Notes under the pieces: generated by a model
The model's database searches: none
What the model was told of the DNA's origin: nothing
The model's input: the letters and a program-made list of their open reading frames with translations, nothing else
Part shown: positions 53,326-60,010 of the stretch, piece by piece
How positions within the stretch are numbered: position 1 is the first letter of the stretch
Layout: each line of letters starts with the position of its first letter
DNA from: an uncultured Tropicimonas sp.
GTDB taxonomy: Bacteria; Pseudomonadota; Alphaproteobacteria; Rhodobacterales; Rhodobacteraceae
Direction: 5' to 3'
DNA: 64,000 nucleotides
Assembly (NCBI GenBank): GCA_947497945.1
Contig: CANMIP010000003.1
Location: 124,001-188,000 of the forward strand
Position numbers and translations under genes: made by a program

Positions 53326-55236
53326 TCAATCCTGAAACGGCGGATATGCGAGGGCGAGCGCGGTCTCGATGATGTCCGCCCCGACGACGTCCAGAATCCA
53401 TTCCCGGACCATCGGCGTATCGATCCGCAGGACGTTGCGAGGGTATTGCACTTCCATCAGCTCCCGGCTCCCGTCGATGTTGCAATTGTTCAGATCGGTG
53501 TCGCCGGAAACGACAGCCATCAATACCCAATTTCCGTAGCCCTCGGGCGGGTTCTGGGCCCACTTGAACACACCGGAGCCGCTGTCGGCCGCACAAAGGC
53601 CCTTCTTGGGATCATGGAAAAGCATGTTCTGAATGCCGGTACACGTCGCAGCACCTGGCTCGGTCTCATGGAGGCAGTCCAGATGTTCCGTCATCGAGTA
53701 GTCCATCGTTCTCTTCAGACCATCGGCTCCGTTCGGACCGTCACCGAACCCGACCACCCTGAAGATATTGTGGGTGGTCGCCTCGAGGCTCCAGATCTCC
53801 TCGCCCATTTCCGGATCGGGAAGCGTTGCGCGGATGCGCTCTGCAAGTGCAGGCAGGATTCCCTTGTTGACGAGCTTGTTCTTGGCTTGCTCCAGTGCGC
53901 CATCCGCGAGCGTCAGGATCGCGAGGTCACCATGCTGCCGACGGGCTGCGTCCGGAACACCTGCATCGGCGCAGTAGGTTGATCCGGTCCTGTCGAAAAC
54001 GCGAACGCCATCCGGATCCAGCGCCATGCCGGCGTAGACATCCTGCACGCCGACCGAAGCGCGGATATCGGATGAGAGGCTCCCATTCACGATCTTGTCG
54101 CAGACGCAATGCGCCGCGGTCAGGATATGCCGATCCGAGATCAGGGTTCCGGTGCAGAACGTATGACCACTCGAAATCAGACGCGTTGCGTAGAACGAGC
54201 AATGCGTGAAACCCAGTCCGTTTGCGATAGAGCAGACGCCATTGACCGTACCCTGGCCGGATCCCAGTGCAAGCAGGTCCTCGATCGCTTGCCTGCCGAT
54301 TCCTTCGAGTCCCTCAGGCGGAATGACTCCCGGTTCCACCCCGAGATTCTTCAGGATGTCCAGGACTTTGCCGGGCGGAATGCTCCCCGGCTCGTTGCCG
54401 AGATTGAAATCGATGTTACGCAGTTGCTGTTCCAGTTCGGGCGGAATCTCTCCGGTCAGCTCGCCGAGCGACTTCGCGAGTCTGTCCAGTTCGCCGGCCA
54501 GGAAACCCTTGTACTCTTCCGGCAACCCTCCGCTTGGGTCTCCCAGGTTGTAAGACCGATACTCGTTGTCACGCCGGGCGATCAACTTCGCATAGGCGTC
54601 AAATCCTGAGACTTCCGGCAGCCGGGTGAACGCGTCGTATTGCATGAACAGATCATTCGTCTCCGTCCCGACCTTGCTCGCCCAACCGATGTCCGACCCT
54701 TTCTGGTGGTCGAAGGTCAATCCACCTACCGTCGACGCCGCATTCTTCAGCGTATCGGAGAAAACGATAGCGTGGGACGTGATCGCCGCGTCTGACACCG
54801 TGTCGAAGCCCGCACCGGGATCGAGCACCGACCCGGAAGGCTCGACGATCAGGACCTCTCCGCCAGCACGGACCATGAACTCCGATCCGCTGCGGAACCT
54901 GATCGTGGCCGGCGCCCCCCGGGTCGTGACGAGATCTTTAACGGTTGACCAGTCGTGGTCCGACAACACGCGCAGCAATCCAGTGTCTTGCCGGATCGAT
55001 CGCGTGACATGTGCGTTCGGATCGACTTGCATTGGGGAGAAGTCTTCGAACCAATGCAGGTTGCCCTGGCTCTCGAGGATGCCGGGGCTGCCCCAATTCG
55101 CAGCGGCCTTCTGGGTCTGCAGCGACTCCTTGATGAACGGCGTGACATACAGAACTTGCGTGTCATCAACCTGCGCACAGAGCGGCATCGTCAGGCCGAG
55201 AAGCAGGCCCAGGGCGGTTTTTCCAACTCGGGTCAT
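53326..55236 (-). CDS. Secreted trypsin-like (S1) serine protease with large N-terminal region
   Basis: GTLISDRHILTAAHCVC (His), HGDLAILTLAD (Asp), GLCAADSGSGVFKW (Ser); signal peptide. Confidence 0.85.
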   Translation of the reverse strand: MTRVGKTALGLLLGLTMPLCAQVDDTQVLYVTPFIKESLQTQKAAANWGSPGILESQGNLHWFEDFSPMQVDPNAHVTRSIRQDTGLLRVLSDHDWSTVKDLVTTRGAPATIRFRSGSEFMVRAGGEVLIVEPSGSVLDPGAGFDTVSDAAITSHAIVFSDTLKNAASTVGGLTFDHQKGSDIGWASKVGTETNDLFMQYDAFTRLPEVSGFDAYAKLIARRDNEYRSYNLGDPSGGLPEEYKGFLAGELDRLAKSLGELTGEIPPELEQQLRNIDFNLGNEPGSIPPGKVLDILKNLGVEPGVIPPEGLEGIGRQAIEDLLALGSGQGTVNGVCSIANGLGFTHCSFYATRLISSGHTFCTGTLISDRHILTAAHCVCDKIVNGSLSSDIRASVGVQDVYAGMALDPDGVRVFDRTGSTYCADAGVPDAARRQHGDLAILTLADGALEQAKNKLVNKGILPALAERIRATLPDPEMGEEIWSLEATTHNIFRVVGFGDGPNGADGLKRTMDYSMTEHLDCLHETEPGAATCTGIQNMLFHDPKKGLCAADSGSGVFKWAQNPPEGYGNWVLMAVVSGDTDLNNCNIDGSRELMEVQYPRNVLRIDTPMVREWILDVVGADIIETALALAYPPFQD

Positions 55237-55245
55237 CTGTCTCTC

Positions 55246-57996
55246 CTAGAGTTTTGTCAGATCGATCGCGCCATGGCCGACCTGATGTGGTGACGTTCCG
55301 GGGAGTGTTCGTCCTTGCTCCGATTCCGTGACCGGCGAGGTGCACAGCCCGATGAGTTCGGATCTCAGTGCGATCGGGTCCGGAAACCCGTTCTGGCGTC
55401 CCGCCAGCAGTGCCAGGACACCGGCGACCTGGGCCGCGGCGGCAGAGGTCCCGCCGAAGCCGTAGGGCTGGCCCGGGTGGCTGAAATTCGCGGCGGCATC
55501 GGTTGCAAATCCGCCAGGGCCTGCGATGTCCGCGGTTGCGACGGGCCGACGGTTCTGCCCAGAGGCGTAGCTCGCGAAACCGGGATTGAGATCGCCGCAC
55601 CGATAGGGAGGGTTATCGATGCTGTCCGAGGGTGCAAGAACACAGAGACCGGGGCCAAACTGGCTGTATTGCGCCCGATGATAGGCCGCGCGGTCAATGG
55701 GTGGCTGTCCTTGTTCGTCCGTGGCATCGGTCATGCGGTAGGTCGCACTTCCGACGACGACGATACCCGTCCCGAGAAACGGATCCCTGAGCGGCTCGTT
55801 GCTCTCGATCGCGGCTTGACCCGACAGCAGCAGGCTGTCGGCAGGCCCATCGGCAAAGCTGTCAAACGCCTTGCTCAGCGAGGCCCGTGTGACGCTTGAG
55901 TCGATCTGGCCAATCATCTCCGTCACAAGATCCAGCACGAGGTCGCGGCCATCCGTATCCTTGAGCAGTTTCAGCACCGGCAGGTAGTCTTCGAACCCTC
56001 CGGGATAGGCCAATCGGTCGCCACCCCGGTTCCCCGATGGGATAACGATGGGGACCGCCGTCTGGGCGATCAGGATCGCCAGAATGAAGGGATCGCAAAT
56101 CGGGCGCCCCTCTGCAGCCGCGCGGGCATGGAACGCCCGCACGCGGCGGCGTTGTTCGTCAGCGCCGCAAGCGCAGCCAGCCCGGGCCGTGTCGAGTTCC
56201 TCTATCGTGAGGTAGCCGTTCAGGTCCTTATCGGGCCGAGGGAAGTCGAGCGACAGAAGCACAGCGGCAACCCGCGCGCCGACATCCCTGCCCGGGGCGC
56301 AATCGCCCGAGGGATCTTTCCTGTGGCCCGCAAGTGCGACGGACAGGAGTTGCACACCGAGGTCGAAACGGTCGTCATCGTCGTCACGGGCATGGTTGGC
56401 CGCCCGTACCGGCAAGATCTTGGCATCCGGGGCAACGCCGAACCGACGGCCGTCGAGTTCGCCCGCGATCAGACCGGCCATTGCCGTACCGTGGCCGATC
56501 CCCTTGGACGACATCGCCCAGGTATCATTGAGCGGCATCGGGTAATCGAGGTTGACGAAGTCGAAATCGCTGTCGCCATCCCGGATGGCGGTCGAGATCG
56601 CCGGGTGCGTTACGTCGACAGCAGTATCGAACATTCCAACCACCGATCCGGCGCCGCGAATGGCCGGATCGACGCTATCAAGGCCGAGTGTTCTCAGGTT
56701 CCAGGACAGCTCTTCTTCCGGCAGTGCCCCCCGCGCCTCCGCTGACCTCAGATCTGCCAACTGTCCGAGGAGGTGGCAATTGCTGTCCGCAGAGGTGTTC
56801 AACTCGGCGATGGCATCCACGATGACCTCGTCGAAAACCAACCGCAAAATCGGAAAGGCAGCCCGAGCGATTATGACGCCGGCGTCGGTGTCGGAGGCGT
56901 AATGCACGCCCGCGTATTCTCGATTGATGCTGATTCTCTCTGCTATATCAAAGAATTGCCCGACGAGGGCGGAGTTCTCGTAAACCTCGGCAAGCCCGTG
57001 GGCGATCAGATGCGTTTGCACCGAATGGGCACTGGGGTAGGAGGAATGCGTCGGCACGTCGATGGCCGGCTTTATCCTCGGGTCGAACACATTCGGACGC
57101 GGGCGGCCAAAGAGCCGCTTGAAATAGTAAGCGATCACGTAACCCGCCATGTCCATGAGATTGAGGAGTCGCAATACAGCCCCTGGCGGCCCAGCAAGGT
57201 CGGCCACGGCGCGAAGGAAGGGCGTCGCGATGTCTTCGACCTCGGAATAGATCTCGGGCAAACGCTCCTTCCGCTCCTCAGCGTCCTGCATGTCCAGCAG
57301 GATTTCGATCTCACGCATGGGCTGAGGACCAACATAGAGCGGATCCGGCAGGTAGAATGGAGCCGTGGCCTGTTCCGTTCGCAGCAACTCCACGATTGAA
57401 GGCAGGACGGAAGAAAGGCGTTGCCGGTAGTGAGCGCGCTCCTCCTCGAACATGGTATCCAGGCGCAACTGCCTGTCCGTTTCCTGTTTGTTGAAGGCGT
57501 TGCGACCTCTCCCACGCCCACGCCCACGCCCACGCCCGCGGCCACGACCTCTGCCCCTGCCCCGTCCACGACCGGTGCCCTTGGCGTCGCCTACGGCGAA
57601 AAGACTTGGGGGAAATGATCCCGGCTCGCTAAGGCATGTCGAAAGGGGCGTATCGACCAGAAGATTGTCGGGCGGGTCCCCAAGAACGAACTGCGTCGTG
57701 AAGCCGGGCGCGCCGTCGCCATTGTCGCGCTTGACAACGTAGGTCGCGGTTCTGCCGAAGTAGAGTTCAGCCAGGTTCAGGGGTTTGGTGGAGGAACTCT
57801 TGTAGCAAGTGTTGAAAACTTTGGGAACGCGGGGGGGCTTGGCCCTCCGGATCACGTCGCGCAAGGTGTCGGCGAGGCTCTGCTCCGAGGCCGGAGGCAG
57901 GGCAAGGCATTGCTCGGCGGCCAACACCTTCGGCGCACCGGTCAGCAGGGCAGAACTCGCCGTGGTTGCAAGAAATTCGCGTCGGTTAAGCTGCAT
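55246..57996 (-). CDS. Tat-exported fusion: PAP2/vanadium haloperoxidase-like domain plus S8 subtilisin-like protease
   Basis: NRREFLATT Tat motif; KRLFGRPRP (KX6RP), YPSAHS, NREYAGVHYASD; subtilase GMFDTAVDVTHPAI (Asp), GHGTAMAGLIAG (His), GGTSAAAAQVAGVLAL (Ser); RG-repeat linker. Confidence 0.88.
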   Translation of the reverse strand: MQLNRREFLATTASSALLTGAPKVLAAEQCLALPPASEQSLADTLRDVIRRAKPPRVPKVFNTCYKSSSTKPLNLAELYFGRTATYVVKRDNGDGAPGFTTQFVLGDPPDNLLVDTPLSTCLSEPGSFPPSLFAVGDAKGTGRGRGRGRGRGRGRGRGRGRGRGRNAFNKQETDRQLRLDTMFEEERAHYRQRLSSVLPSIVELLRTEQATAPFYLPDPLYVGPQPMREIEILLDMQDAEERKERLPEIYSEVEDIATPFLRAVADLAGPPGAVLRLLNLMDMAGYVIAYYFKRLFGRPRPNVFDPRIKPAIDVPTHSSYPSAHSVQTHLIAHGLAEVYENSALVGQFFDIAERISINREYAGVHYASDTDAGVIIARAAFPILRLVFDEVIVDAIAELNTSADSNCHLLGQLADLRSAEARGALPEEELSWNLRTLGLDSVDPAIRGAGSVVGMFDTAVDVTHPAISTAIRDGDSDFDFVNLDYPMPLNDTWAMSSKGIGHGTAMAGLIAGELDGRRFGVAPDAKILPVRAANHARDDDDDRFDLGVQLLSVALAGHRKDPSGDCAPGRDVGARVAAVLLSLDFPRPDKDLNGYLTIEELDTARAGCACGADEQRRRVRAFHARAAAEGRPICDPFILAILIAQTAVPIVIPSGNRGGDRLAYPGGFEDYLPVLKLLKDTDGRDLVLDLVTEMIGQIDSSVTRASLSKAFDSFADGPADSLLLSGQAAIESNEPLRDPFLGTGIVVVGSATYRMTDATDEQGQPPIDRAAYHRAQYSQFGPGLCVLAPSDSIDNPPYRCGDLNPGFASYASGQNRRPVATADIAGPGGFATDAAANFSHPGQPYGFGGTSAAAAQVAGVLALLAGRQNGFPDPIALRSELIGLCTSPVTESEQGRTLPGTSPHQVGHGAIDLTKL
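56197..56232 (-). other. EF-hand-type Ca2+-binding loop inside the subtilase domain
   Basis: Encodes DKDLNGYLTIEE, a canonical 12-residue loop. Confidence 0.6.
57503..57575 (-). repeat. In-frame hexanucleotide tandem repeat encoding about 12 Arg-Gly dipeptides
   Basis: cccacg x4 plus degenerate units (cccgcg, gccacg, ...), translated as (GR)n on the minus strand. Confidence 0.9.
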
Positions 57997-58036: not shown

Positions 58037-59664
58037 CTAGGCGGCAACGCCCAGTGTTCGGAATGCTGCGGAAATCGCCTCCCGGCTGGCCGAGCTTGGC
58101 AGCGGATAATTCGGCTCAAGGATGCCGCGGGATTCGAATTGCTCGTCGTTCTCCCGGATATGACGGATCATCTGCAGGGCTTCCTCATGGCGACCAAGGC
58201 GCGCGAGACTGACGGAGCAGTGACGCATCACCGCAAGGAAATCCGGAATCTGGGTCAGGATTGATTGCGACATGCGCACCGCGCATTCGTGATCTCCCGA
58301 GAGTGTCGAAGCAATCGCAAGCGAGGACTGGAACAACGGACGATAGGCGCTGAATTGCCCCAGCTTCAGCGCGACGCGACTGTAATCCAGCGCGTGTTCG
58401 AAGTCGCCACGATACACCGCATTCATTGCCGAGAAGTCCCAGCAGATCGCCATATTGGGCGCCACCTTGCGGGCGAGCGCCTCCATCTCGTCTCCCAGTT
58501 CCATTTCGCGCAAGGCAAAGCCGTGCACATGCCCGGCCAGGGCCAGCACGAGCGGGTTTTGTGGATCAATCTCGCGGGACCGGATGGCATGTTCGCGTGC
58601 CTTCTCCAGATCTGCCGCCAATGCGTTCTCTTCTCCAAGCGTGTTGGCGATGGACAGGGCATAAGCGGCGTTCGCAACCGCCGAGTCCATCAGTTCGGGT
58701 TGCTGCGACAGGAAGGTTCGAACCTCGTGTTGGGCCCTTGCCGACATGCTGAACAACTTGTGCAGCACGCCGATCATCGAAGAAGGGCCGCCCACATGCA
58801 GTCCCTGACACAACTCGCGCCGCCGAAAGAGCACCGAGAGAACGGCATCAACCGCCATGTTTGCAAACTCAACGGCGTCATCGGCGGGAAAGGCCGTGAG
58901 CCGCGACAGGTCGGTGGTCAAACTGCGGTTCCACAAGACCTGCCGCCCCGCTGTCGAGACGACACCGAAACCGATCTGGGCGACATCCCCCGCCCCGACC
59001 GCAGTGAGTTCGATCAGCATTTCCGGATCCGCAATTCCGGTTGAATCCGCGCCATTGCCATCCACAAGAATATGCCGGAAATCGAAGATGTCGGCGACTT
59101 CGTAGGCGCGCAGCGCCTCGGTGACGATCTCGAGGATTGTTGCAGCCAGTGTCGAACACCGCGGATCGTTGCCGTACACTCTGATCGGAAGAATCCCGAC
59201 TCCCGGTCGCAATACCCTGTCCCGAACCCGTTCCGGCACAGGCGGCTGTATCGGATCGGCGAGCCGCGACCGCTCGGTCTGCAGCCAGTGGTCGAACTCT
59301 GTTCCGATCTTCGTGGGGGCGTCCTCGAAGAAGGTTTCCCGGGCGACCGGCAACGTTACCGAGATATCCGTGTGATCGAGCCAGACATAGGTGCGATCCG
59401 CCGCCAGCAGCTCCGCGACCGGTCCAAGTTGGCGCCGGATGGTGGTCAGCGCCGTCCGAAGGCTGCCGGCCGCCTGGGCCTCGGGGCTGCGCGGCCAGAG
59501 CATGGCCGTGAGGAACTCGCGGGCCTTCTTGTGTCCCGCGGCCGTCGCCAACAGGGCCAGTATTGCGCGTTGACGCCCACCCTGGATTTCAACGCGCGTT
59601 CCACATACGTCGAGACTGAAATTTCCGCAAAGACAGAAGTGTACCGTGGCGACAGACGTCAAGG
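58037..59664 (-). CDS. BTAD/SARP-like winged-helix transcriptional regulator with TPR-like C-terminus
   Basis: FCLCGNFSLDVCGTRVEIQGGRQRAILALLATAAGHKKAREFLTAMLWPRSPEAQAAGSLRTALTTIRRQLG; exact start uncertain (ORF open to 59887). Confidence 0.75.
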
Positions 59665-60010
59665 TGAACCCTCCTTGTGACTCCAAATGCAATCTAGGCC
59701 GGCGATGCAGGTAATCCGGCGACAGGAAACACGCGATCCTCACAAATAGACTTGACGCAAGGTAACCCAGAATCGGCGCAAAATCCATGTAGAAACACTT
59801 GCAGCAAAGACAACCGTCACTGCTTTTTCTAGGTTTTTCTTGTTTTAGAAACGCCTCGAAAGCATTTTTAACGGATTTTTCACGCACGATTACCGCACGA
59901 CTCGCGCTGCAATACCCAAAAACCGGAGACTTCTGGGTATTCCCGCCAATTCACGTTTCAGCCGGGCGGAGGGCGGGAGACAACGTCCCGGCATAAATCG
60001 AGGTAAAAAA

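Follow-up and report, generated by a model that had tools for sequence, protein, structure and literature searches.

On the reverse strand of the window (the whole 64,000-nucleotide stretch of DNA analyzed here), one open reading frame of 916 aa (55246..57996 (-)) runs uninterrupted from an ATG start to its stop and encodes a PAP2 domain fused to a subtilase of peptidase family S8. The protein begins with a Tat-like signal peptide, judged by eye (approximately aa 1-28, MQLNRREFLATTASSALLTGAPKVLAAE; 57913..57996 (-)), and continues with an N-terminal extension (aa 29-141; 57574..57912 (-)) that is in part common to two fused homologues, L054 and L055. A dipeptide array, (GR)12, written with nine different codons (aa 142-165; 57502..57573 (-)), sits between this extension and the PAP2 domain (approximately aa 229-395; 56812..57312 (-)), which is delimited by Pfam, alignments and an AlphaFold model. 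The subtilase domain, placed by Pfam and alignments, occupies the remainder (approximately aa 430-916; 55249..56709 (-)). Both domains exceed their Pfam cut-offs: PAP2 (PF01569) matches at aa 283-384 (E = 1.7e-9; 37.9 bits against a gathering cut-off of 27.2), and Peptidase_S8 (PF00082) matches in two stretches, the best at aa 448-534 (E = 3.4e-16), with 59.8 bits for the fusion protein against a gathering score of 21.8. The initial annotation had proposed a PAP2 domain and a subtilase in one protein, and the single open frame of 916 codons bears this out.

The PAP2 signature reads K293-x6-R300-P301, P321-S-A-H324 (including S322) and R359-x5-H365-x3-D369. Its catalytic positions are invariant in alignments of 15 and of four sequences, and invariant or at least 90% conserved across 50 sequences. 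The S8 catalytic residues are D457, H502, N656 and S851, the same Asp/His/Asn/Ser set as in other subtilases (PF00082). The three PAP2 signatures and the complete triad with its oxyanion Asn had thus been read correctly, and a check for missing residues finds every PAP2 and S8 catalytic position occupied. Compared with known S8 subfamilies, the window domain differs in being fused to PAP2, in its long inserts and in its weak similarity; its best NCBIfam match is mycosin (58 bits, below the cut-off of 279). An insert lying between the His and Asn motifs of S8 contains an EF-hand-like loop (DKDLNGYLTIEE; window 56191-56226 (-), aa 591-602), with a similar loop in L054 (DYDRAGYLSAYE) and none in L055 or L056.

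What kind of PAP2 enzyme is this? Its signature is common to phosphatases and vanadium haloperoxidases, and the initial annotation had named both. Class A nonspecific acid phosphatases (PF01569; the Pseudomonas aeruginosa enzyme of 7f17/7f18, PhoN, PhoC) have the same PAP2 fold and the same K-x6-RP, PS-x-H and R-x5-H-x3-D residues. Searched with phmmer against the PDB, the window protein finds acid phosphatase 7f18 (E = 5.5e-9), with subtilisins weaker. A profile of 50 homologues reaches 7f17 at E = 1.2e-20, and it also matches bromoperoxidase 1qi9 at E = 3.2e-10. The AlphaFold model of aa 170-404 (pLDDT 82.6, pTM 0.81) leads Foldseek to acid phosphatases first (7f18, E = 3.2e-7, TM 0.67-0.74, rmsd 7.3), the first haloperoxidase being iodoperoxidase 4cit at E = 6e-3. 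Acid phosphatases therefore rank far above haloperoxidases among the closest structural relatives, and by sequence and predicted fold the domain resembles the class A enzymes more. PAP2 membership stands while the haloperoxidase likeness loses ground, and a vanadium-dependent haloperoxidase joined to a protease is, in our judgment, extremely unlikely. The class A homologues examined differ from the window protein in being Sec-exported single-domain proteins without array, regulator or peptidase partner. The AlphaFold check proposed in the initial annotation succeeds for the PAP2 part; for S8 the model has low confidence (pLDDT 54.8), was left unused and gives no arrangement of the two domains.

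Two further genes flank the fusion closely. Upstream by 40 bp lies a SARP/BTAD-like regulator with a winged helix and TPR repeats (58037..59887 (-)), recognized through weak Pfam matches to Trans_reg_C and TPR, whose true start is probably internal to the open reading frame. It has the N-terminal winged helix and C-terminal TPR of the SARP/BTAD and CadC/HilA-type regulators, from which it differs in its dedication to the array-PAP2 operon and in its weak family scores. Downstream by 9 bp is a trypsin-like (S1) protease with a Sec-type N-terminus and the motifs TAAHC and ADSGSG (53326..55236 (-)). In L054 and L055 a trypsin-like gene likewise follows the fusion; none was seen at the other loci examined. 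Farther out, the window genes resemble, by eye, housekeeping genes such as acetolactate synthase and acyl-carrier malonyltransferase. The (GR)12 array, the trypsin-like gene, the TPR regulator and the repeat-bearing PAP2 operon itself had gone unmentioned in the first reading of this DNA; that operon is a more unusual feature than the fusion.

The fusion is rare and real. When 397 genomes of the family were screened with a PAP2 profile, long frames appeared in three other genomes (G392, G159 and G348), all belonging to other genera of the same family: L054 (860 aa), L055 (926 aa) and L056 (699 aa, lacking the N-terminal extension), with 54, 36 and 36% identity to the window protein, respectively. 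All PAP2 and S8 catalytic residues are invariant in the four fused proteins. The architecture, called unusual at the outset, is accordingly found in four of the 397 family genomes, and 395 genomes at class level contain no fused copy beyond the window's own. An earlier scan of genome contigs with the window protein alone as query gave no matches. Maximum-likelihood analysis of 75 PAP2 domains places the four fused proteins together (support 100/99); this group recurs in 100% of bootstrap trees, and the fused state needs a single change. Since they form one clade, the fusion most simply arose once. An assembly or frameshift artefact was considered and is ruled out by the recurrence of the same fusion in genomes of other genera.

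In relatives without the fusion (G007, G015 and G012), the gene order is TPR regulator, PAP2, S8, with genes that overlap or almost touch. PAP2/S8 junctions in these split relatives include TGAGCCATG and TGAGGCATG; two of them read TGA-GCC-ATG and TGA-GGC-ATG, in frame, and one is preceded by a Shine-Dalgarno-like stretch. Programmed readthrough of the in-frame TGA is an unneeded assumption here, as TGA-GCC-ATG with a Shine-Dalgarno-like CAGGAG represents ordinary coupling. For Rhizobium ruizarguesonis plasmid pTA1_1, the publicly annotated genes are, in succession, a 'SARP family transcriptional regulator', a 'phosphatase PAP2 family protein' and an 'S8 family serine peptidase', and Phaeobacter plasmids show the identical order with a regulator of winged-helix type. 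Separate genes in relatives had been put forward as a sign of misassembly. Such genes do exist, yet with the fused form recurring across a whole clade they indicate gene fusion and not error, and the window frame is a real fusion of two neighboring module genes, most simply made once in one lineage.

How widespread is the unfused module? With a profile built from the PAP2 domain only, arrays left out, 154 of 397 family genomes contain homologues at E 1e-8, although the lowest-scoring matches are probably generic PAP2 proteins. Across species genomes the same profile confirmed no fewer than 545 candidate stretches, the best 80 of which come mostly from alpha- and betaproteobacteria. Partners were counted at the 95 distinct loci whose flanks measure 2 kb or more on each side. 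A TPR regulator adjoins PAP2 in 92 of them, as detected by a profile to which the window regulator itself contributed. An S8 subtilase is present in 84 (fusions counted in), a papain-like peptidase in three, and a class III cyclase-TPR protein without peptidase in six, these six being among the 92 regulator-bearing loci; two loci are unassigned as to partner. This gene association is well established across the set. PF00082 is matched by 42 of 43 aligned S8 proteins, in which His, Asn and Ser are invariant and Asp nearly so. The papain-like proteins match no recognized Pfam family; DQ..(R)xTCNAFA is common to all three, and GHTVCxVG with FRNSxG occurs in two, the third being truncated. In a further clade (L174, L175 and L177), the third gene encodes a glutamic peptidase of the Peptidase_A4 (eqolisin) family (E = 1e-20 to 1e-28), and the arrays are AGN, NTG or TSN. 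As one peptidase class replaces another in the same slot, proteolysis is likely part of the module's function.

The window genome itself harbors a second, clade-B copy with an FGG array (G000:C31, locus L061:2747-5424), in which the PAP2 gene is broken by an in-frame TAG. A regulator lies upstream of this PAP2 gene, which is possibly a pseudogene, and an S8-like frame follows it. In Rhizobium and Phaeobacter (loci L218-L231) the module is carried on large, often conjugative plasmids, so it can pass between strains. Compact regulator-enzyme-peptidase modules, often plasmid-borne, invite comparison with conflict systems, in which array-PAP2 or the regulator would unleash the peptidase upon infection, and PADLOC returns weak matches to a subtilase and to Avs1b. 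These matches reflect generic protease similarity and come from no system-specific model, the window neighbors look housekeeping by eye, and no phage copies of the module were found; we regard an anti-phage role as very improbable. No named family, defense system or paper describing the module or its array was found in the databases and open-access literature searched. The combination of regulator, array-PAP2 and exchangeable peptidase is widespread and apparently undescribed; its individual domains are all known.

A perfect short tandem repeat is present in 138 of 142 unique PAP2 homologues and spans at least 12 residues in 137 of them (median 25, maximum 57 residues), whereas only four of 326 partner proteins contain tandem repeats and five ordinary PAP2/acid phosphatase homologues (L185, L186, L187, L191 and L192) have none. 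There are 77 different units (e.g., NVG, GNQ, GWE, SNH, SR, NK, GRS, GGA, EAV), and their chemistry follows the clades: the split pairs of clade A have basic dipeptides, the fusions have basic units, the large clade has mainly tripeptides rich in glycine, and loci with the papain-like peptidase have histidine-containing tetrapeptides. In L011:1285-2580 (-), a GGF array lies in a different frame from PAP2, unlike in the 96% identical L010, which points to a frameshift or a sequencing error near the array.

Codon usage within the arrays argues that their periodicity is selected at the protein level. Differences between neighboring units are synonymous in 2267 cases and nonsynonymous in 19, the latter a lower bound, as perfect runs were picked first and the tally, even with their edges extended, leans toward perfect units. 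Neighboring units use the same codon less often than expected (0.295 against 0.376 when shuffled within unit position; z = -11.7; none of 500 shuffles as low), with 107 arrays lower than their shuffles and 30 higher, and control genes without arrays show no such anti-repetition at codon distance 3 (0.387 against 0.386). Besides selection, slippage deletion of identical neighbors could contribute. At a distance of two units, codon identity exceeds expectation, as if two-unit blocks were sometimes duplicated. The window (GR)12 array shows no anti-repetition, 8 of 22 adjacent codons being identical. In L152:1-90, a GMSG array is still perfect in DNA (GGT ATG AGT GGA, seven times), whereas the others are codon-scrambled, and is perhaps young. 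Within Rhizobium the unit NK is constant in 7-8 copies, and within Phaeobacter NSF is constant in 5-6 copies; in both, changes are confined to whole-unit indels and silent sites. Because the units stay constant and silent changes predominate, the array is an old, protein-level feature, whose unit varies between lineages and is stable within species. This constancy lends no support to phase variation of the array or to its hypervariability within populations, both of which were considered.

Export seems to be peculiar to the fused subclade. The window N-terminus (MQLNRREFLATT; MQLNRREFLATTASSALLTGAPKVLAAEQ) is Tat-like by eye, with the motif NRREFLATT, and L055 starts with MGMNVSRRHLLTTAAWGALAAS, which contains a clear RR signal (SRRHLL). 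In L054, SRRSVLLGG is found in frame ahead of the called start, with an in-frame TAA between it and the nearest ATG. Strongly hydrophobic N-terminal stretches are absent from 140 of 142 PAP2 homologues and from nearly all S8 partners, in a crude scan that would miss Tat signals like the window's. Judging from these N-termini, relocation of the module to outside the cytoplasm probably took place in the fused subclade. The Tat start of the initial annotation is thus a candidate signal, and it is only in this subclade that export of the folded protein is plausible. With one operon encoding three hydrolases and carrying Tat-like and Sec-type signals, and with acid phosphatases as the nearest solved PAP2 relatives, the acid phosphatase, subtilase and trypsin-like protease might simply free phosphate, peptides and amino acids outside the cell, the GR array being a basic linker. 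We consider such scavenging rather unlikely: most module members lack evident signals, the protein-level perfection of arrays across the family exceeds what a plain linker needs, and the locus is coupled to a TPR regulator.

The explanation that best fits the whole, to which we give an even chance, is a once-made fusion within a three-component module whose array serves as a multivalent element for the peptidase and/or the TPR protein. The first component would be the TPR regulator, which is winged-helix/BTAD-like except in the one clade that has a class III cyclase-TPR protein; the second, a phosphatase of the PAP2 fold whose short peptide array is perfectly periodic; and the third, a peptidase, S8 as a rule but papain-like or glutamic (A4) in other clades. 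The regulator would switch the operon on, the phosphatase would act on a phosphoester, the array may be a multivalent recognition element engaged by the module's own peptidase and/or TPR protein, and proteolysis would control or mature the phosphatase. The fused pair would then correspond to adjacent, co-transcribed genes of this module. In the window clade, where the pair is fused, a Tat-like signal added and a Sec-exported trypsin-like protease placed alongside, the work would probably take place outside the cytoplasm.

Several observations bear on what the array may contact. The TPR protein is a strong candidate partner, since nearly all variants keep it and the array, whereas a peptidase is sometimes missing. 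The six cyclase-type loci have array-PAP2 without peptidase, so peptidase cleavage cannot be the sole role of the array. Unit-specific co-diversification of the S8 protein or the regulator was examined in close pairs, and neither turns hypervariable when the unit changes. Their conservation argues against tight unit-specific co-evolution, and contact may therefore rest on periodic backbone geometry, not on side chains.

In multi-core and fused-precursor peptide systems, such as borosins and alpha-factor precursors, a repeated peptide lies beside or is fused to an enzyme and a subtilase. The module is alike in having a repeated peptide adjoining or fused with both, and the array could by analogy be a multi-copy precursor, cut by the peptidase, sensed by the TPR regulator or receptor and possibly modified. 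Three catalytic types of peptidase in the same slot and the almost constant TPR protein are consistent with this. So are the genes directly after the S8 gene in L232:7569-10111 (R. ruizarguesonis pTA1_1), which encode an aKG-HExxH peptide beta-hydroxylase (TIGR04267; 73.5 bits against a cut-off of 40) and a ThiF-like protein. The HExxH gene, however, is limited to Rhizobium and Neorhizobium loci (including Neorhizobium L218), and the ThiF-like gene is seen in Rhizobium. Moreover, the arrays differ from borosin and alpha-factor precursors in consisting of di- to pentapeptide units without processing sites between them, and a precursor role is putative; no exporter is seen at the loci, the cyclase loci have no peptidase, and the TPR part is conserved across unit changes. 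Peptide maturation or signaling is, on balance, a serious but unlikely rival.

The boldest reading is a new kind of bacterial module, and for this claim we put the chances a little below even: an enzyme of phosphatase fold bearing an array whose periodicity, not sequence, is selected, and acting alongside a TPR regulator and a peptidase that can be exchanged for another (serine, papain-like or glutamic). The window protein would be its fused and exported form. Annotations as 'PAP2 family' or 'S8 family' that look unrelated, hundreds in all, would thereby be united in one module. The array would be a rare case of an amino-acid periodicity visibly kept by selection while its codons are scrambled and its unit is lineage-specific, and it poses a question: what reads a repeat irrespective of its sequence? 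The natural fusion may offer a ready tool to purify and test the enzyme-peptidase pair.
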